DNA of 36,386 nt from Candidatus Kaiserbacteria bacterium (GTDB lineage Bacteria > Patescibacteriota > Minisyncoccia > Phycocordibacterales > UBA2100): NCBI GenBank assembly GCA_016214605.1, contig JACROD010000007.1, positions 1 to 36,386 of the forward strand, given 5' to 3'. Positions 21,401 to 30,873 of the stretch are shown here, piece after piece (within the stretch, counting starts at the first letter, position 1; each line of letters starts with the position of its first letter). Made by a program: the position numbers and the translations under genes. Below the pieces are notes generated by a model. The model saw nothing but the letters and a program-made list of their open reading frames with translations. It was not told where the DNA came from and did no database searches.

Positions 21401-21440
21401 GATGCATTTTGGCTGTGCACAACCCCTTGCCTTTCCCAAT

Positions 21441-21462
21441 AGGAGGAGTACTATCTCTCCTC
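21441..21462 (+). promoter_or_regulatory. Leader hairpin upstream of the kinase-like gene
   Basis: AGGAGG-AGTACTATCT-CTCCT can fold in the 5' leader of the 236-residue gene, about 50 bp before its start. Whether it regulates anything is unknown. Confidence 0.3.
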
Positions 21463-21513
21463 GGTGGCTTAAGAAATGCCAATTTTTCCGAAACCGAAAC
21501 AGGGAGTAAATAC

Positions 21514-22221
21514 ATGTCGCCTACGAAAAAAGCTCTTTTTATTGCTGTTGGCGGTCTTCCCAGTACGGGCAACGAGACCCTCTTTCAGGAACTTGGATCT
21601 TCGCTCGCGGATACATATCCGGATCGAACAATTGAGCTTCTGCGTGGTCCACTCGACTTCTATCCTCCGCCGTTTATGCTCGGCGAGGAAGAACGTCTCG
21701 AACCAGCTATCTCTAAAATGGACCGGTACTGGGAGATTGGCGCCGCCTACGCTAGGGAGACTATATTGCCTGCGTTGTGTCGCAGCGATATTGTTCTCGT
21801 CAAAAGCTTCGGCTTGGCGATAGCGACGCGTGCGACCGCATACAATCTGGGACCGGACGACCTCGCAGAGGCACTCCGGAAACATCACGATGAAAAAATA
21901 CCTAAATTCGTCACCTTCGGTCCGCCGACCTACGTGATTCCCACGACACCTTGCATGGATGCAGGTATTGAACAAGTGCTCGCTTATATGCGCAAAAGGC
22001 GTCCCGGGGAATTAAAGAGAGTTCCGGAAGAAGAGTTGAGAAGATATCTCCTGCATCAGGTGTATATTTTTAATCACTACTTCCAAGGCACCGACCAGAA
22101 GAAACCAATCTTCTTGGACGCCAGGGACAGTCATTCGACAATGGTCGAACAGGCACTCGACATACTTGTTCCGATGGCCGATAAGCACTTCGCTATCATG
22201 CGGTGCAAAGCGGTCGCTTAA
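21514..22221 (+). CDS. Thymidylate-kinase-like P-loop protein with degenerate Walker A
   Basis: A 236-residue protein whose layout resembles small nucleotide or deoxynucleoside kinases. An N-terminal strand runs into a glycine-rich loop (FIAVGGLPSTGNETLFQELG). A later segment YWEIGAAYARETILPALCRS resembles the lid-side helix before the DRY region of thymidylate kinase, and there is a VLVKSFGLAIATR strand. The Walker A Lys is absent (TGNET where GKST/GKTT is expected), so ATP use is doubtful. The assignment rests on pattern only. The start at 21514 follows GGGAG; an in-frame ATG at 21409 lies before the leader hairpin. Convergent with the hyf operon. Confidence 0.5.
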   Translation: MSPTKKALFIAVGGLPSTGNETLFQELGSSLADTYPDRTIELLRGPLDFYPPPFMLGEEERLEPAISKMDRYWEIGAAYARETILPALCRSDIVLVKSFGLAIATRATAYNLGPDDLAEALRKHHDEKIPKFVTFGPPTYVIPTTPCMDAGIEQVLAYMRKRRPGELKRVPEEELRRYLLHQVYIFNHYFQGTDQKKPIFLDARDSHSTMVEQALDILVPMADKHFAIMRCKAVA

Positions 22222-22291: not shown

Positions 22292-23833
22292 TTAGAGATC
22301 CGTGCCCGAGTATGAGAGATTGAGGCTTTTGTTACACAGCGGGAAGTCCGGCACGATGTTGCCCGGGCCGATCTCGCCAAAAAGCGCCCAGTTCATAAAT
22401 GACGGATCGGAAATCGCGCAACGGTCGATGCGGCCGCCTTCGTCGAGGCGCACCCAATCAATGATCGCGCCACGCCAGCTCTCGGCCCACCCGAGAGCTT
22501 CGCCTTCACGCACTACCACCGCCGTCTGTGCTTCACCCTCCGGAAGCTTTTCGAGGCACGAACGGATGATGCGGAGCGATTCCGCGACCTCTCGCGCACG
22601 CACCTTGAATCGCGCGGCGACGTCACCCGAGGATTCTGTCGCGACCAAGACACCGAGGTCGGCATAGCCCGCATATGGATGATCGCGGCGCATGTCGATG
22701 CCGACGCCGGAGGCGCGCGCGGCCACGCCGCGCGCGCCATAGTCGATCGCCGCCTCTCGCGAGAGAACCCCGGTCGTCTCAAAACGCTCCATCAAGCCGT
22801 CGCTCGCAAATGCGATGTCGAGGATCGCCTGCAGATCTTTTTCGGTCTTTTTGAGGCTGTTCAAAATATCCATCACTGCTTCCGCAGATATATCATGTGC
22901 TCCACCCAGCGTGATCGCGCCGCGCAAAAAGCGGTGCCCCGTGAGCGAATCATGCAGGCGACGCAGTTCTTCGACCATACGGAAACCTTGTGCCGCCATA
23001 AAGGTGAATCCCGTGCCGTTGCCGGCGATATTGCCGATATCGAAGATATGCATCGTGATGCGCTCAAGCTCGCTCCACACGACACGCAGTGCACGCGCAC
23101 GCTTAGGCACCACCGTGCGGCACGCACGCTCCACCGCCTCGGCAAAAGCGAGCGTATGAGCGACCGGCATATCGCCGGAAATACGCTCAATGAATGGGAG
23201 TGCCTGCGCAGGCAGTTTGCCTTCTACCAGCTTTTCGATACCCTTGTGTGTGAAAAAGAGTTTGCCTTCGAGCGAGAGGATACGCTCGCCGCGCACATTG
23301 AATCGGAAATGTCCCGGCTCGATGATACCCGCATGAATAGGGCCGACCGGAATCTCATAGATGCCAGTGCCCTCGACCGCGTGCATCGGATACGGCACCT
23401 GTGCATGTGCGAGCTGAGTATCGACCGCAAAATCCTTGCGGAGCGGATAGGTACCCTCGGGGATGTTTTCGTGATGAATGAGTCGGCGCCAATCCGGATG
23501 TCCCTGCGCCACGATGCCAAACTGATCGTGCATGAGACGCTCATACCAATGTGCCGCCATGATCGTGCGTGTGAGCGACGGATACGTGCGATCCTCGGCA
23601 GATACGTCGCATTTGAGCGTGAGGAATCCTGAGACCGCCACCGAGAAGACCGCGTGCACTCCATAGGTCTTGTGTGCTGCACGCTCATCGGTCGCGTACA
23701 TGAAGACGAGCGGTGCGCCCGCGGCCACGCATTGGTGCGCCATATCCGCGAAGCTCGCCACAGGCACCAGCACAGCCGCCTCCCCCGTCGCGCTTGTCAA
23801 ACCGATATCTGAAAGTAGTGATCGTATGTCCAT
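22292..23833 (-). CDS. hyfG: HyfG/HycE-like large subunit (NuoC-NuoD fusion) lacking NiFe ligands
   Basis: A 513-residue subunit of a group-4 hydrogenase-like or complex I-like enzyme. Residues about 20-135 are the NuoC-like domain (HWYERLMHDQFGI, GHPDWRRLIHHE, PLRKDF). The NuoD-like domain follows, with VGPIHAGIIEPGHFRFNV and FFTHKGIEKL. Real NiFe subunits bind the metals by two CxxC motifs. Here the first site reads ERISGDMPVAH (216-226) and the second reads DPSFMN (476-481) in place of DPCxxC, so no Cys ligand remains. It ends VPDFPLCNKSLNLSYSGTDL, a conserved-looking C-terminus for this subfamily. Last gene of the operon, 3 bp after hyfF. It fits the energy-converting-hydrogenase-related (Ehr) type better than a working hydrogenase. 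No Hyp maturation genes are in the window. Confidence 0.9.
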   Translation of the reverse strand: MDIRSLLSDIGLTSATGEAAVLVPVASFADMAHQCVAAGAPLVFMYATDERAAHKTYGVHAVFSVAVSGFLTLKCDVSAEDRTYPSLTRTIMAAHWYERLMHDQFGIVAQGHPDWRRLIHHENIPEGTYPLRKDFAVDTQLAHAQVPYPMHAVEGTGIYEIPVGPIHAGIIEPGHFRFNVRGERILSLEGKLFFTHKGIEKLVEGKLPAQALPFIERISGDMPVAHTLAFAEAVERACRTVVPKRARALRVVWSELERITMHIFDIGNIAGNGTGFTFMAAQGFRMVEELRRLHDSLTGHRFLRGAITLGGAHDISAEAVMDILNSLKKTEKDLQAILDIAFASDGLMERFETTGVLSREAAIDYGARGVAARASGVGIDMRRDHPYAGYADLGVLVATESSGDVAARFKVRAREVAESLRIIRSCLEKLPEGEAQTAVVVREGEALGWAESWRGAIIDWVRLDEGGRIDRCAISDPSFMNWALFGEIGPGNIVPDFPLCNKSLNLSYSGTDL

Positions 23834-23836
23834 AGA

Positions 23837-25315
23837 TTATGTGATGACCGCCGCTAAATGTTGGAGGAGCTCTTTGCCGGGTGCGGTCCACAGGGACACG
23901 CCGACCGCGAGGATAAGTACCACGTGGAGCAAGAACGCCGTATGCGAGATACCCCAATGTTCACCGACCTCTTCGGGCTCGATCGCATTGCCCTTGAGGT
24001 ATTCACGCGAGAAGAGCATCGGCATAAAGAGCCGCACGAATCCAGCCAAGATGATCGTGAGCGCTACAAGGACCAGCACCATGGCGATAGGATGATCCAC
24101 AATACCGGTCGAGATGATGAGATATTCACTGAGGAAAAGCGGCGACGGTGGCACAGCGAGCAGAGCCAATATACCGATCAGGAAGAACGCGCCCGAGTAC
24201 GGCATGATGCGCATGACATCACCCACCCGCTCGAATTTGGTGCTCTTGAAACGCAGGAGAATATTGCCCGCATCGAAGAAGAGCATCGACTTGATCAGTG
24301 CATGACCGATCATATGGATCGCTCCGGCGATCACGCCCACGCCGCCGAGCCCGATCGAAAAAGCCATGAGCCCCATGTGCTCGATACTCGAGTATGCGAG
24401 GAGGCGCTTGTAGTCGGTCTGCAAGAGGATGAACGCGGCCGGCACAAGGACCGAAAGCACGCCAAACCACAGCAAGAGATCGTTGGTCCAGACATTTGAT
24501 CCCATTGATCCGTCCACGAGCGCCTTGTAGCGAAGGATCGCGAAGAGCGCGGCATTCAAAAGCACGCCCGAGAGGATGCCCGAGATCGGCGATGGCGCAC
24601 GACTGTGCGCATCCGGAAGCCATGCGTGCATCGGGACGAGACCGACCTTGGTGCCGTATCCGATGAGGATAAAGGCAAACGCCACACGCAAGAGATCAGG
24701 CGAGAGCGTCGGCGCGATCGAGAAGAGGTGCGTCCATTCGATAGCCTTGAGTCCCTCGACGACGTCGACCGCCGAGGCGGCATAGTACACACACAAGAGC
24801 CCCATGAGCCCGAGCGAGATGCCAGTCGAGCAGAGGATCAGATATTTCCATGCGGCTTCAAGCGAGCCCTGACGCGCGTAGAATGCCACCAAAAATGCCG
24901 TCGCGAGGGTGGTCGCTTCGAGCGCGACCCACATGAATCCGAGATTATTGGAGACGACCGTGGCGAGCATGGAGAGGACGAAGAGCCCGAGCAGTGCAAA
25001 GTATCGTCGCAACATCGGCACCGACACGGCGTTTTCTTCCACCTCTTCCTTGAGATACGACATGCTCGAGATGGTCGCCGTCCACTGGACAAAAGAGATC
25101 AAGAGCACCATCAAGCTCGAAAGCGAATCGAGATACCAGAGCCCGCCGGAGAGTACGACCGATGAACCGAGGAGTGTCGGCCACGCCGCATACACGCCCA
25201 TCGCGAAGACGAGCGTACTCACGGCGACAGCACTCGTCGAGATCGCGCGCGCAGAGCTGCCGATGAACGGCACGATCGCCATGATGAGACAAAGTATGAG
25301 AAGAAGTGTGATCAT
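23837..25315 (-). CDS. hyfF: HyfF-like proton/cation-translocating membrane subunit (NuoM/N family)
   Basis: A 492-residue Mrp-antiporter-like subunit with about 14 membrane helices; E. coli HyfF is about 526 residues. Ion-path residues are kept: the Glu in FMWVALEATTLATAF, the Lys in GYGTKVGLVPMHAWLPDAHS, and the Lys in GHALIKSMLFF. LLAYSSIEHMG is also typical. It ends 3 bp before hyfG and begins 6 bp after hyfE, so translation is likely coupled. Confidence 0.93.
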   Translation of the reverse strand: MITLLLILCLIMAIVPFIGSSARAISTSAVAVSTLVFAMGVYAAWPTLLGSSVVLSGGLWYLDSLSSLMVLLISFVQWTATISSMSYLKEEVEENAVSVPMLRRYFALLGLFVLSMLATVVSNNLGFMWVALEATTLATAFLVAFYARQGSLEAAWKYLILCSTGISLGLMGLLCVYYAASAVDVVEGLKAIEWTHLFSIAPTLSPDLLRVAFAFILIGYGTKVGLVPMHAWLPDAHSRAPSPISGILSGVLLNAALFAILRYKALVDGSMGSNVWTNDLLLWFGVLSVLVPAAFILLQTDYKRLLAYSSIEHMGLMAFSIGLGGVGVIAGAIHMIGHALIKSMLFFDAGNILLRFKSTKFERVGDVMRIMPYSGAFFLIGILALLAVPPSPLFLSEYLIISTGIVDHPIAMVLVLVALTIILAGFVRLFMPMLFSREYLKGNAIEPEEVGEHWGISHTAFLLHVVLILAVGVSLWTAPGKELLQHLAAVIT

Positions 25316-25321
25316 AAGTCC

Positions 25322-25969
25322 TTAGTCGATGAGTTCGCGCAAATAATCGGTCGTGAGTGATGCATATTCGCCGTGCACGCGACGCACGAGCCCCATCATG
25401 AGCACAAAAAGTGCGAGGAGATCAAACATCACGCCGATCTCGACGAAGAACGGTGTCCCGCCGGTGAGTGCCAGACCGAATACGAAAATACCGTTTTCCA
25501 TCACGAGGAATCCCATCCCCTGCCCAAAGAGGTCTTTGCGCGTAATGAGAAGCAAGAGGCCGAGGATCACCATCGAGAATGATACGCCGACGATCAGATA
25601 ATTGGTCCCGCCCCAGAGCGCCGCCTGCGCCGCGAGAAATGCACCGAGCACGAGCACTGCGCCGATGAATGAGAGCGTGGTCGGACGCAAATACGCCTCC
25701 AAGCGATGGGAAGCGCCGGTCGTACGCGCGATATGCAGGAAGAGTGTCGGGATCAGAATAGCTTTCAATATGATTACGAGCGCCGCGACGATGAGCAGGT
25801 GTACTTCATTGAGACGCACGGCGATGTCGAGCGCATAGAGACCGAGGAGGATCGCCTGGATACGGAAAAGCCCGACAAGCGACGCGAGGCGCATGCGACT
25901 CACCATGAGCAATGCTGTGAGGAGCATTCCCCCGACAAGAAACGACAAAATGATGGCTGGTGATGGCAT
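25322..25969 (-). CDS. hyfE: HyfE-like membrane subunit
   Basis: A 215-residue hydrophobic protein, the same length as E. coli HyfE (216). It has about six membrane helices and the characteristic stretch GFLVMENGIFVFGLALTGGT followed by EIGVMFDLL, which resembles a NuoK-like Glu-bearing helix. In hydrogenase-4-type enzymes it helps join the antiporter subunits to the NuoH-like subunit. Four bases separate it from hyfC upstream. Confidence 0.9.
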   Translation of the reverse strand: MPSPAIILSFLVGGMLLTALLMVSRMRLASLVGLFRIQAILLGLYALDIAVRLNEVHLLIVAALVIILKAILIPTLFLHIARTTGASHRLEAYLRPTTLSFIGAVLVLGAFLAAQAALWGGTNYLIVGVSFSMVILGLLLLITRKDLFGQGMGFLVMENGIFVFGLALTGGTPFFVEIGVMFDLLALFVLMMGLVRRVHGEYASLTTDYLRELID

Positions 25970-25973
25970 ATGT

Positions 25974-26921
25974 CTATAGTGTGTGACCGATCAATACAAG
26001 GATAAATCCGATGAGCGCTCCGATAGCGGCGACCGACATATACTCCTGCATGCGATAAAATCGCATCTTCACGATTGTCGATTCGATGGTGGCCACGAGC
26101 AATCCCCCGAGCGTGAGCTTGGCCACGAAGACCATGAGTGCGACAGGGATCAAAGCCAGGCCAAACGCGGGATGCAAAAGGCCAAATGGAAGGACGAGAT
26201 TCATGAACAACACGAGCATGACCGTGAGCTTGATCGCAGCGGCATATTCGAGCATCGCGAGATACGGACCCGAATATTCGAGTATCATCGCTTCGTGCAC
26301 CATCGTGAGCTCGAGATGTGTGGCGGGATTGTCTACCGGGTAGCGCGCATTTTCGGCCAAGATCACTGCAAGCAGCGCGAGCAGTGTAATACTCGCGACC
26401 GGTACGACCGCGCTCCACGGCGACATCGCAAAATACCCGACGATCCCGTCGAGACTCCATACACCCGCCAAGAGCCCGAGCGTGGAGAGGACGAGATAAA
26501 AAGCGGGCTCGACGAGCGCAGCGAGCGTCATCTCGCGGCTCGATCCCATATGGCCAAATGTGCTCGAAGTATCCATACCACCAAGGACCAAAAATACCGA
26601 GCCGAGCGCCGCAATCGCGCCGATCAAGAAAATATTGCTGGCTGCATGCGGCAGTATCCCATAGGCGATCGAAGGTACGAGGAGCGCCAGACACACGGCG
26701 GTCGCGAGTACGACAAAAGGCACCACACGGAAGACCCATGAGCTGTGACGCGTGATCGTCATCTCTTTGCGCATCAAAGAAAGGATCGTCCAGTACGGAA
26801 GCAAGATCGAAGCGCCTTCGCGATTTTGGTAGTGCGCTTTCATCTTGCGCACGATACCGACCGTGAGCGGGGCGAGCGCGAGCACACATATCCATTGCAA
26901 GAAAATAAGTACGTACATCAT
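25974..26921 (-). CDS. hyfC: HyfC-like membrane anchor subunit (NuoH family)
   Basis: A 315-residue membrane protein, the same length as E. coli HyfC. NuoH-type subunits connect the peripheral arm to the ion-pumping arm. The signature AENARYPVDNPATHLELT (about residues 190-207) and MVHEAMILEYSG follow the family closely, including the acidic residues of the presumed ion channel. The start is the ATG at 26919-26921, which overlaps the hyfB stop in ATGA; a longer reading would run far back into hyfB in another frame. A second ATG follows at once and is an alternative. Confidence 0.93.
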   Translation of the reverse strand: MMYVLIFLQWICVLALAPLTVGIVRKMKAHYQNREGASILLPYWTILSLMRKEMTITRHSSWVFRVVPFVVLATAVCLALLVPSIAYGILPHAASNIFLIGAIAALGSVFLVLGGMDTSSTFGHMGSSREMTLAALVEPAFYLVLSTLGLLAGVWSLDGIVGYFAMSPWSAVVPVASITLLALLAVILAENARYPVDNPATHLELTMVHEAMILEYSGPYLAMLEYAAAIKLTVMLVLFMNLVLPFGLLHPAFGLALIPVALMVFVAKLTLGGLLVATIESTIVKMRFYRMQEYMSVAAIGALIGFILVLIGHTL

Positions 26922-28900
26922 AGGGCAATGATCATGACGACCGCTAATGCACACACGACGAAGAGCAGGTACAGCTGGATCACGCCGCTCTGAAGACGCT
27001 TCGTCCAAGTCGAAGCACGCATGACCCAATACGCGATCGGCATATAGAGCGTGTGTTCCCAGAGCGAGCCTATGGTCGAATCCAGCCGGCGACGCGCGAT
27101 CCACGGATTCCCCGCTGCAATCGGCTCTTTGATCAGGTCTTTGCGCGACACCAAGACACTACGGAAGAAAAAGCGTATCGGTGCGGCAAAGCCGGTCGCC
27201 GTGTATTGCATGCGCGGAGTGAGCGGTGTACCACAATCCCATGTATCAGTGATGCGCACGGGCGCGACATTGGTGAATGCGCGTCGGATCAGATACACAC
27301 CGATAATGACCAACGCAAAAAGCGCAAAGACGAACCATACATTGATCGACGCGCCGGGCATGACCGAGAGACTCGCGACCCGCCCGATTGCGTCTTGCAT
27401 CGCCACATCCGAAAACACCGACCCCGCCGATACCGCCACCAGCAGTGACCCGACGACGCACAAAAGCGGCGACCACAGGAGTGTGCCGAACATGCGGGTC
27501 GTGACTTCGGCGTGATCCGATCGAGCACGACCGAGAAAGACGAGTGCAAAAAGCTTGACGAAGGTGAAGATCGCCAATCCACCGATCAAGGCAAGTACGA
27601 CCATGATGAGCGCTGAGGCGACGGCAAAAGAAGTCGGCAATACAGACATCGCGACCGCGAGCGATTGCAGATACATCCACTCGCCAAAGAATGTGCCGAG
27701 TGGCGGGAGTGCTGCGGCCGCGAGCGCAAGTGTCAAGAAGACCCCCGAGAAGAGCGGCCATGCGCGCGCGAGGCCGCCGAGCAGATCGAGGTCGCGCGTA
27801 TGCGTCGCCGAGGCGACCGCGCCGACGGCCAAGAAGAGTCCCGTCTTGAAGAAGAAGTGATTGACCGTGTGCAAGACGACAAAGATACTCATCGTGCCCG
27901 CGAGCGACCAAGCGACCGGCGAATCAGGAAGCGTGCGCAAGACGAGCACGATGCCGACACCCGAAAAGATGAGTCCCATGTTTTCGACACTGCTCCATGC
28001 CAAGAGCCGCTTGGCATCACGCTCGACCGCTGCATGCAGTGCACCGAAGAATCCCGATCCGAGTCCGACGACGATCACGACAAGCGCCCACCACATCGGA
28101 ATAAATGGGAACAAGAAAAGCGACTGAATGAATCCAAAAAGCGCGACCTTGAGCATCGTGCCCGAGAGCAATGCCGAGCTGTGGCTGGGCGCTTGCGGGT
28201 GCGCATACGGAAGCCACTGATGCAGGGGCACGAGCCCTGCCTTGGAGCCGAATCCGGCCAGGAGAAGGAGGAACGCCACCGAAAGCATCTGGGGTGAGAT
28301 GAGAAATGCGCCGAGCGCGACATCGCTCCAAGTCGCAAAGACATTACCCTGCGCCAAGAGCAAGAATCCGGAAGCGAGACACACGAAACCGATATGTGTC
28401 ATGAGAAAATACAAAAATCCCGCACGCAGCGAATCATCGGTGCGATCCGCGATCACCAAGAAGTACGCCGCGATCGACATGACTTCCCACGCGATAAGGA
28501 ACGCAACGACCGAGCCGGACATGATCGTCGCCTGCATGCCGAGTATGAAAAGAGCCGACGTGACATTGAGCCATGGAATTGAATATATCTTTTTGTAGTG
28601 ACGCAGACCTTGGATCGCATAGATCGAGGTCAAGAATGTGCCCAGATACACGAGCGCCAAGAAGAACGCCGCGAGCGGTGTCACCGTGAATCCCGAGATG
28701 ACCTGGATCGCCACATTTCCCTGACCGGATACAAAATATCCCGCTATGCCGATCGTGCCGACCACGCCGGAAGCTGCGAACAAAAACTGTGTCGCCGTAT
28801 TGGCTCCGTGCACGCGATACAATACGAGCGCGAGAATCGCGCCGACCAGCGGAAGCACAAACGCCGCTTCGATCAAATACAGGTAGAGAGAGGTAGGCAT
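26918..28900 (-). CDS. hyfB: HyfB-like antiporter subunit (NuoL/M family)
   Basis: A 660-residue membrane protein, near the 672 of E. coli HyfB. Ion-translocation residues are conserved: Glu in LIAWEVMSIAAYFLV, Lys in GFGSKAGLVPLHQWLPYAHP, Lys in ERDAKRLLAWSSVENMG, and Lys in NHFFFKTGLFLAVG. The C-terminal part has the HyfB-specific soluble loop (ITDTWDCGTPLTPRMQYTATG) and a last helix. It starts 10 bp after hyfI and overlaps hyfC by 4 bp. Confidence 0.94.
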   Translation of the reverse strand: MPTSLYLYLIEAAFVLPLVGAILALVLYRVHGANTATQFLFAASGVVGTIGIAGYFVSGQGNVAIQVISGFTVTPLAAFFLALVYLGTFLTSIYAIQGLRHYKKIYSIPWLNVTSALFILGMQATIMSGSVVAFLIAWEVMSIAAYFLVIADRTDDSLRAGFLYFLMTHIGFVCLASGFLLLAQGNVFATWSDVALGAFLISPQMLSVAFLLLLAGFGSKAGLVPLHQWLPYAHPQAPSHSSALLSGTMLKVALFGFIQSLFLFPFIPMWWALVVIVVGLGSGFFGALHAAVERDAKRLLAWSSVENMGLIFSGVGIVLVLRTLPDSPVAWSLAGTMSIFVVLHTVNHFFFKTGLFLAVGAVASATHTRDLDLLGGLARAWPLFSGVFLTLALAAAALPPLGTFFGEWMYLQSLAVAMSVLPTSFAVASALIMVVLALIGGLAIFTFVKLFALVFLGRARSDHAEVTTRMFGTLLWSPLLCVVGSLLVAVSAGSVFSDVAMQDAIGRVASLSVMPGASINVWFVFALFALVIIGVYLIRRAFTNVAPVRITDTWDCGTPLTPRMQYTATGFAAPIRFFFRSVLVSRKDLIKEPIAAGNPWIARRRLDSTIGSLWEHTLYMPIAYWVMRASTWTKRLQSGVIQLYLLFVVCALAVVMIIAL

Positions 28901-28910
28901 ACTATATATA

Positions 28911-29432
28911 TTAGGCGCGCGCCTGTTCTATCGCCTTTAAAAGTCCGCGGATGATATCGGCGGGCGCAGGCGGGTCACCCGGGATCTGCCAGTCGACCGG
29001 TATCACATCGGCGACACTACCGACGACTGCATAGGATCCTTTCCAAATACCGCCCGTGCAGGCACCGTCGCCCACCGCGACCACGATACGCGGCTCGGGC
29101 GTCATCTCGTAGGCGACCTTGAGCGCATGCTCCATGTTGCGTGTGACCGGGCCCGAGACCGTGAGGATGTCCGCATGGCGCGGCGAAGCGACAAAAGAAA
29201 GCCCAAAACGCTCCACATCGTAGTAGGCGTTGCCGAGCGCGGTCATCTCGTATTCCTCGCCATTGTTGGACCCCGCATCGATATGGCGGATGCGCAGAGA
29301 GCGGCCACCGTAGAGTCGGCCGATCGTGGCCTTGAGATTGCGCCCCGCCTCGACAAAAGCCGCGTCTTCGAGAGAGGGCGCGGGCTCGGTAATACGGCCG
29401 GTCTTGATGATCTTGGAAAGCAGAGAAAGCAT
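28911..29432 (-). CDS. hyfI: HyfI/NuoB-like small subunit lacking all four Fe-S cysteines
   Basis: A 173-residue member of the NuoB/HycG/HyfI family, which normally holds the proximal 4Fe-4S cluster (N2 in complex I). The fold is well conserved (YYDVERFGLSFVASPRHADI, TVSGPVTRNMEHAL, GSYAVVGSVADVIPVD). Each cluster ligand is replaced: the GCNGC-type pair reads SNNGE (N56 and E59), GDCAC reads GDGAC (G123), and PGCPP reads PGDPP (D153). The only nearby Cys, C125, is not a ligand position in relatives. It is first in the operon and shorter than E. coli HyfI (252). The subunit probably survives as a structural link between the HyfG-like subunit and the membrane arm. Confidence 0.92.
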   Translation of the reverse strand: MLSLLSKIIKTGRITEPAPSLEDAAFVEAGRNLKATIGRLYGGRSLRIRHIDAGSNNGEEYEMTALGNAYYDVERFGLSFVASPRHADILTVSGPVTRNMEHALKVAYEMTPEPRIVVAVGDGACTGGIWKGSYAVVGSVADVIPVDWQIPGDPPAPADIIRGLLKAIEQARA

Positions 29433-30138: not shown

Positions 30139-30873
30139 CTACCATTGCTCCAACAGAAGCGAGGAGAAGATGTCGTCATGCGCCTGTATAAAATGCAACA
30201 ATGCTTCTTTTGCTTCACGTTTGAATGCTATCGTTGCGTAAGTCCGACTTGCGCCATTCGATACATTAAGCAACCCAAGATCATTCAAGGCTTCCTCGTC
30301 GACAATGAGGGAATGCTCACCAAGTGCACAAACACGCAAGCTTGAATATTTGTATGACAACGCCCATTCCCATGCACGATCAAAATCTTTAAGAGCAGCC
30401 TTCAGGCCGCCCGGATACAATTCCAATACATTTTTTACGAGAATATAAAAAACGAGGTGTCGCAGATATGTGTCTTGCTCAACCAACTTCCCCTTATACC
30501 CACCTTGAAAGATACTCCCCTGCTCACTGTACTTCGCATTGAAACAAAGTGTCATGCTTCCACCGAGACGTTGCATAAACGTGGCAATTCCGCCTTCGTG
30601 TATTTCTCTGAGCAACAGGTGGAAGTGATTTGGCATTAGCGTCCACGCAAGTATCGATACAAGTGGCCTTCGGTCGGGCCAGTGACCGGGGCGTTCCAAT
30701 GACAACGTCTGTGTATCACGGAGCCAATGATCATCACTATATTCATCATTCAAGAAATAGAGTGACTTCAGAAAACGCTCGCGATCGTTCTCATCGAGCA
30801 CTATTTCTGCACCGCGCGCGCCACGCTTTATGACATGCAGCACAGAATCGACCCCATGTTTCTCGACCCTCAT
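30139..30873 (-). CDS. REP-associated tyrosine transposase (RAYT, Y1/HUH family)
   Basis: A 244-residue Y1 transposase of the kind that mobilises REP palindromes as single-stranded DNA. The HUH metal motif is in WTLMPNHFHLLLRE (H83, H85), and the likely nucleophile Tyr is in HLVFYILVKNVLELYP (Y143). GSIFQGGYKGKL is also typical of the family. The C-terminus (about residues 206-213, GASRTYA) is encoded by one of its own palindromes, in inverse orientation. Two further copies lie upstream of the gene and one downstream. All catalytic residues seem present, so it may be active. The ATG is at 30871-30873; no good Shine-Dalgarno. Confidence 0.9.
   Translation of the reverse strand: MRVEKHGVDSVLHVIKRGARGAEIVLDENDRERFLKSLYFLNDEYSDDHWLRDTQTLSLERPGHWPDRRPLVSILAWTLMPNHFHLLLREIHEGGIATFMQRLGGSMTLCFNAKYSEQGSIFQGGYKGKLVEQDTYLRHLVFYILVKNVLELYPGGLKAALKDFDRAWEWALSYKYSSLRVCALGEHSLIVDEEALNDLGLLNVSNGASRTYATIAFKREAKEALLHFIQAHDDIFSSLLLEQW
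30235..30256. repeat. REP-like palindrome 2, inside the transposase gene, inverted
   Basis: TGCGTAAGTC-C-GACTTGCGCCA, the same family as the copies at 30104, 30890 and 30962 but with the central base complemented (C instead of G), so in the opposite orientation. It is read in frame by the transposase gene. Confidence 0.85.

Follow-up and report, generated by a model that had tools for sequence, protein, structure and literature searches.

A Patescibacterial Ehr-type complex, predicted to lack every known redox centre and encoded at several loci beside the F1Fo ATP synthase genes

Energy-converting hydrogenase-related (Ehr) complexes combine a large subunit derived from the group 4 hydrogenases, in which the NiFe-binding Cys residues are missing, with the antiporter-type subunits B, C, E, and F; according to Jaffe et al. 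(2020, PMC7304191), the Ehr large subunits of the candidate phyla radiation (CPR) are monophyletic and devoid of metal-binding Cys, and no H2 chemistry is inferred for them. The function of Ehr has been called unknown in comammox Nitrospira (PMC10284858), Ehr proteins are abundant in formate-grown Geobacter (PMC7894505), and a coupling with formate dehydrogenase (FDH) has been proposed in Margulisbacteria, Saganbacteria, and Geobacter (PMC6349859, PMC7894505). Among the other members of the superfamily, MBX is a ferredoxin:NADP oxidoreductase (PMC6349859), while DAB2 (DabA/DabB), a complex powered by the proton-motive force (PMF), and Mrp use complex I-type ion-conducting subunits without redox chemistry (PMC13144422), as is proposed here for the product of the operon hyfI-B-C-E-F-G. 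This operon is harbored by a stretch of DNA of 36,386 nucleotides (hereafter, the window), i.e., contig 6 of a metagenome-assembled genome (MAG; 1.09 Mb, 96.8% complete) of a Kaiserbacteria-like member of the Patescibacteria. It shares with the published Ehr the large subunit without NiFe ligands and the four antiporter-type subunits; however, whereas the available portion of that paper reports the loss of the large-subunit Cys only, the complex described here also lacks the small-subunit cluster and the ferredoxin input and is, as a family, linked to the ATP synthase genes. Ehr complexes devoid of NiFe ligands had been described before, CPR included, while the redox-free form, its spread, and its ATP synthase link appear undescribed: neither the small-subunit cluster loss nor the ATP synthase linkage is mentioned in the literature searched, which did not cover the 2013 Ehr survey (Marreiros et al.).

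The operon consists of six closely packed minus-strand genes, extending from 29432 to 22292, with the start of hyfC overlapping the stop of hyfB (ATGA); according to Pfam and NCBIfam profile matches, all six are homologues of group 4 hydrogenase/complex I genes. The same subunits (B, C, E, F, G, and I) are found in E. coli hydrogenase 4/formate hydrogenlyase (HyfG, HyfI; HycE, 7z0s), whose folds are closely matched by the predicted ones; nevertheless, the complex differs from it in lacking the NiFe and cluster ligands, any HyfH, HyfA, or HyfD homologue in the operon (HyfH was not searched for elsewhere in the genome), and HypD in the whole genome (the other Hyp genes were not searched for). 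The absence of HyfH, FDH, and Hyp genes, claimed in a first-pass annotation made from the sequence alone, thus holds within these bounds, that of FDH and Hyp genes applying to the scanned window genes, with no genome-wide FDH search made. A ferredoxin-type subunit is likewise missing beside the operon at the loci inspected, with no genome-wide search for ferredoxin or HyfH made. As for respiratory complex I (NuoB, NuoCD, NuoH, NuoL/M, and NuoK), the fold, the coupling subunit, and the pump residues are shared, and both are devoid of NiFe ligands, but the window complex lacks the N2 cluster ligands, an NADH module in the operon, and the quinone-site His and Tyr.

The analysis of HyfI revealed that N56, E59, G123, and D153 occupy the four cluster positions, as had been noticed from the sequence, since the alignment with E. 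coli HyfI and with two CPR relatives keeping the Cys residues places them exactly there, and the hydrogenase-type relatives read CCCC at the same positions. Neither the four ligands of the proximal [4Fe-4S] cluster of group 4 [NiFe] hydrogenases nor the tandem-Cys N2 cluster of NuoB is present. The homologues in the sister genomes were checked as well, and their cluster cysteines are also missing: the five same-genus relatives harboring the gene all lack the same four Cys, and at least three of the four are gone in every readable member among about 50 loci, the states at positions 56/59/123/153 being mostly T/S/N, E, G, and D. A minority (sister) set keeps the second Cys only, usually together with D123 and D153. 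Since all five same-genus relatives and most of the approximately 50-locus clade lack the same four Cys, chance is excluded. The AlphaFold2 model of HyfI (pLDDT 90.8) matches NuoB, MbhJ, and HycG with a Z of about 19 and an rmsd of about 2 angstroms.

In HyfG, the stretch ERISGDMPVAH had been correctly recognized as the first former CxxC motif (L1), where the two Cys are replaced by Ser219 and Met222. The proposal of DPSFMN as the second (L2) was instead rejected, because this segment falls on a motif without Ni ligands, namely RAATYANW in E. coli HyfG and RTPSFAHL in NuoCD; the true L2 lies at the C-terminus, where SLNLSYSGTDL is paired with SLDPCYSCTDR in the alignment, so that the Cys residues correspond to Ser507 and Gly510. 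Since the true L2 is also Cys-free, the loss of all four Ni ligands stands, and all eight Cys ligands (four in HyfI and four in HyfG) are gone from the window's proteins. Among the readable relatives, S219 is kept in 42/42, S507 and G510 each in 40/40, while position 222 varies (M/S/T/A). The mean column conservation of the four segments surrounding the old active site is 0.87, 0.74, 0.80, and 0.92, versus 0.51–0.55 in the NuoC part and the remainder of the protein, and the AlphaFold2 model (pLDDT 88.9) matches HycE (7z0s_E) with a Z of 46.8 over 507 residues. Ile171 and Gly220 stand at the positions that we take to be those of the quinone-site His (of HPxxH) and Tyr of NuoD.

In the membrane arm, the Glu and Lys residues of the antiporter-type subunits, which the first reading had described as retained in HyfB and HyfF, are near-invariant in the alignment of the relatives, the conserved ones being E139, K220, K251, K297, K352, and E407 in HyfB, E133, K223, K303, and K342 in HyfF, and E158, E177, and K69 in HyfE. 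The acidic signature attributed to HyfC is partially kept: E141, D200, and E207 are near-invariant, whereas Ala and His stand where NuoH has E216 and E218. Pairwise dN/dS values (NG86, calculated on the pairs with a usable dS only, and rough where dS > 1) are about 0.03–0.13, with medians of 0.086–0.106 in all six subunits, i.e., far below one, and the operon is kept across about 50 loci, in agreement with the conservation, rather than decay, that had been supposed. As a separate observation, in many Moranbacteria-type loci (L024:12440-14119, L028, L033, L034, L035, L037, L039, L041, and L043), HyfC and HyfE match one continuous open frame, an apparent fusion. The features discussed are listed in the following table.

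Table. Genes, former ligand positions, and related features (positions in the window, unless a locus is named).
Feature	Position	Strand	Basis
hyfI-like small subunit (NuoB/EhrS fold), 173 aa	28911..29432	-	PF01058 E 9.6e-26; alignments; AF2 (AlphaFold2)
hyfB-like antiporter-type subunit	26918..28900	-	PF00361, NF005086
hyfC-like NuoH-type subunit	25974..26921	-	PF00146 E 1.8e-31
hyfE-like membrane subunit, NuoK-containing	25322..25969	-	NF008556 E 5e-18
hyfF-like antiporter-type subunit	23837..25315	-	PF00361, NF005044 E 2e-121
hyfG-like large subunit (NuoC+NuoD type), 513 aa	22292..23833	-	PF00346/PF00329; alignments; AF2
HyfI, former cluster Cys 1 and 2: codons N56, E59 (GSNNGEE for GSCNGCE)	29256..29267	-	alignments
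HyfI, former cluster Cys 3: codon G123 (VGDGA for VGDCA)	29064..29066	-	alignments
HyfI, former cluster Cys 4: codon D153 (GDPP for GCPP)	28974..28976	-	alignments
HyfG, former L1 CxxC: codons S219 to M222 (RISGDM)	23168..23179	-	alignment
HyfG, true former L2 CxxC: codons S507 to G510 (NLSYSG)	22304..22315	-	alignment
HyfG, DPSFMN (476-481), conserved, not a Ni-ligand motif	22391..22408	-	alignment
CsoSCA-like protein near the hyf operon	L024:8846-9865, L028, L035, L043, L037, L041, L019, L020, L047; L138:10930-12597		

A scan of 84,980 species genomes disclosed 47 further loci, belonging mostly to Kaiser-, Moran-, Uhr-, and other Patescibacteria; since its patterns were built from cluster-free sequences, the scan cannot gauge the frequency of Cys-containing forms. 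The whole operon, in the order I-B-C-E-F-G, is kept at every locus long enough to show it, and it is carried by about 50 independent contigs, one of them a complete chromosome. No relatives were found in viral contigs. The profile search of a sample of 380 genomes of the phylum gave 15 genomes with a match, 11 of the window's kind, the remaining ones corresponding to three CCCC forms and one different Ehr with DADN. In the phylogenetic tree, 55 NiFe-free large-subunit rows are set apart from the true hydrogenases (L125 and L126) with an SH-aLRT of 98, which, along with the absence of the NiFe Cys, bears out the Ehr-type identity suggested at first; the order inside this group is weakly resolved.

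Two kinds of Ehr were recognized in the Acidobacteriota, both without the NiFe Cys and both sharing the cleft motifs SGD or AGD...H, DPSF/DPS.NW, and N.SYSG/AG. In the first, the small subunit carries an N-terminal dicluster ferredoxin and all four Cys; in the second, there is no ferredoxin part, the four Cys are kept, and the gene order is mostly that of the window. The four [4Fe-4S] Cys of the small subunit, typical of the Acidobacteriota Ehr examined although not part of the published Ehr definition, are thus what the window form lacks, and on sequence grounds it resembles the second kind deprived of its cluster. The Acidobacteriota Ehr that keep the proximal cluster have the same HyfG pocket; the large-subunit site is therefore alike with and without the cluster and independent of it, and the absence of the cluster is a derived state. 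The sequences suggest that the electron path was stripped stepwise, with the NiFe site lost, the ferredoxin input absent, the proximal cluster removed last, and the cleft retained, this order being derived from the Acidobacteriota intermediates and not from a rooted tree. A second Ehr lineage, G274 (L134:7659-8411; also L070), with a fused, partly eroded ferredoxin domain and the small-subunit Cys changed into D, A, D, and N, is a separate cluster loss within the ferredoxin-fused kind. Besides this independent event, one or two losses are possible, because the support for the monophyly of all the cluster-free forms is 26. Cluster-free copies are also located at the base of the window's clade in two Acidobacteriota MAGs (L131, G475, and L132, G476), which also harbor an ordinary NuoB. 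The G+C content of the contigs concerned (0.72 and 0.68) agrees with the values for the remaining contigs of these genomes (0.73 and 0.67); this suggests that such copies moved between phyla and speaks against misbinning, though it does not prove its absence. Genome reduction as the sole cause of the loss is weakened by these two MAGs, whose size is 3.8 and 4.8 Mb.

The search for genes recurrently co-located with the operon disclosed the F1Fo ATP synthase operon, which is placed directly upstream, on the same strand, in 14/47 loci, with the order atpI-B-E-F-H-A-G-D-C where complete. The gap from the last called atp gene is mostly 74–1,433 bp; in two cases it is 2.0–3.3 kb, either an atp gene having been missed by the gene caller or another gene lying between. 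HyfG sequences of the linked loci are down to 56% identical. One carrier of the genome sample (G401), whose contig has the length of that of L031 (35,077 bp), was taken as the same locus and left out of the count. G286, a clade A genome made up of a single contig, has the operon between atpC and atpD, but on the opposite strand, and in G330 a distance of about 7 kb separates atpB from the operon. Independently from the position of the genes, in the 380-genome sample the F1Fo a subunit is present in 11/11 carriers versus 193/369 other genomes (54% overall; Fisher p 0.0011, uncorrected for shared ancestry). It is known that a Gln marks the c rings of the Na+ type; since the c subunits of the linked loci do not have it, a proton ring is likely. 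In the 14 carriers searched, HypD and the heme-copper oxidase are each absent from 13 and UbiA from 10.

The whole body of data is consistent, at about an even chance, with an Ehr-type complex stripped of every known redox centre, in which a predicted ion-translocating arm, the coupling subunit, and the emptied cleft have been kept under strong selection. Since in many of these ultra-small bacteria the metal sites are replaced, the genes often being located beside those of ATP synthase, the complex is likely to drive or exploit a flow of ions in which electrons have no part. Homology predicts that the conserved Ser219, Asp221, His226, Glu172, and Ser507 line the cleft of HyfG; this cleft might bind a ligand or undergo a protonation or acid-base step, and this event would be coupled through HyfC to the movement of protons (or to cation/proton exchange) in HyfB and HyfF. 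The complex would share its ion circuit with the F1Fo ATPase, so that electrons would not be needed. As regards the direction, a complex that spends, as DAB does, the PMF provided by a reverse-running ATPase is mildly favored over one that makes force for ATP synthesis. A broader proposal, held at slightly less than an even chance, is that several lineages of Patescibacteria and some Acidobacteriota MAGs share a branch of the complex I superfamily that works without redox chemistry. In it, a non-redox ligand or acid-base step in the peripheral arm would be coupled over a long range to proton movement, and the complex, encoded with the F1Fo ATP synthase, would form with it a chemiosmotic unit that needs no electrons. 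In complex I research, one question is how events in the cavity of the peripheral arm drive distant membrane pumps, and another is whether the electron as such is required. A complex found in nature that has this arm, the coupling subunit, and the pumps, yet is free of redox centres, would allow the effects of conformational or electrostatic coupling to be told apart from those of electron transfer; it also bears on the use of ATP synthase by Patescibacteria without electron transport chains.

Some observations weigh against this interpretation. The gene is present in only 6/52 same-genus genomes (the window's own and 5/51 others), so that the gene set is accessory. In the window itself, the operon has no ATP synthase genes next to it, and the linkage could be, in part, inherited synteny within clade B. 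The window's genome harbors a heme-copper oxidase gene (COX1) and, 2 kb away, a UbiA-family gene (contig C20, 64427-68587), which is probably a heme O synthase; neither is found in the five same-genus carriers. Moreover, an unrecognized organic cofactor (flavin, nicotinamide, or quinone) in the cleft could keep the complex redox.

The last point corresponds to the first of the alternatives, a rather unlikely one, according to which the complex is still a redox enzyme whose HyfG directly binds an organic carrier of two electrons (NAD(P)H, flavin, quinone, or thiol/persulfide), hydride being passed without Fe-S clusters and ions being pumped as in complex I. The strong conservation of the cleft would fit, and so would the fact that complex I lost its NiFe site yet kept a redox substrate, and that MBX and MBS, group 4 relatives, work without NiFe. 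However, the profile scans detected no flavin or nucleotide domain in the operon, and the characterized relatives deliver electrons via the proximal cluster, which is gone here. Quinone reduction in particular was rejected, as the known site residues are replaced (Ile171 and Gly220) and UbiA is missing in the 10/14 carriers mentioned above.

An Mrp-like cation/proton antiporter that retains HyfG, HyfI, and HyfC as mere leftovers with a structural or regulatory role is also unlikely, and slightly more so. HyfB, HyfF, and the NuoK part of HyfE do keep the key residues, and no redox centre remains; nevertheless, the conservation of HyfG is not random but peaks around the old cleft. Moreover, Mrp complexes have no HyfC, HyfG, or HyfI, whereas these homologues of NuoH, NuoD, and NuoB are retained in all the loci with complete operons.

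A DAB-like machine, in which the membrane gradient powers the hydration of CO2 (or a different acid-base reaction of inorganic carbon), with a CsoSCA-like carbonic anhydrase encoded alongside in some lineages, appears improbable. In terms of function, the closest precedent for a complex I-type subunit that powers non-redox chemistry is DAB2, an established PMF-driven complex (PMC13144422); DAB, however, has a beta-carbonic anhydrase subunit and no HyfG, HyfI, or HyfC, which the window operon has, while no DabA-like partner was found in the operon (DabA was not searched for genome-wide). A CsoSCA-family protein (Pfam E 1.4e-7; PDB 2fgy E 7.5e-11), with conserved C, D, R, H, and C, is encoded in the flanks of 9/47 loci and of G330, though the family occurs in only 9/380 phylum genomes. 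On the other hand, it is not enriched in the carriers (1/11 versus 8/369 other genomes, p 0.23), and a genome-wide search did not find it in the window's genome, so that a carbonic anhydrase as an obligate partner was discarded. The gene is also near the atp genes in two genomes without the complex (G357 and G462); therefore, its tie may be to ATP synthase. It represents a lead toward a DAB-like function, not evidence for one.

Finally, a decaying pseudo-complex or an assembly artefact, to which only the patchy presence might point, is hardly credible, local decay or assembly error being ruled out by the Cys-free homologues, by the intact operons with open frames on about 50 independent contigs, complete chromosome included, and by the dN/dS of about 0.1, unless one systematic error is common to the whole set of MAGs.

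Some further genes were observed around the operon. In clade A Moranbacteria (L045, L046, L048, L049, L051, and L055), a gene for a VTT/DedA-family membrane protein is located upstream of hyfI. In the window, hyfG is adjoined by a gene (21409-22221) for a protein of about 250 aa without a Pfam match, with members of the same family encoded next to the operon or in its vicinity at seven other loci, and a protein with an IS200-like Y1 transposase domain is encoded upstream of hyfI, between hyfI and rpoD (30139-30873). Lastly, the protein encoded at 35527-36117 matches a PaaX-type regulator and narrowly clears the cut-off for Cas2.

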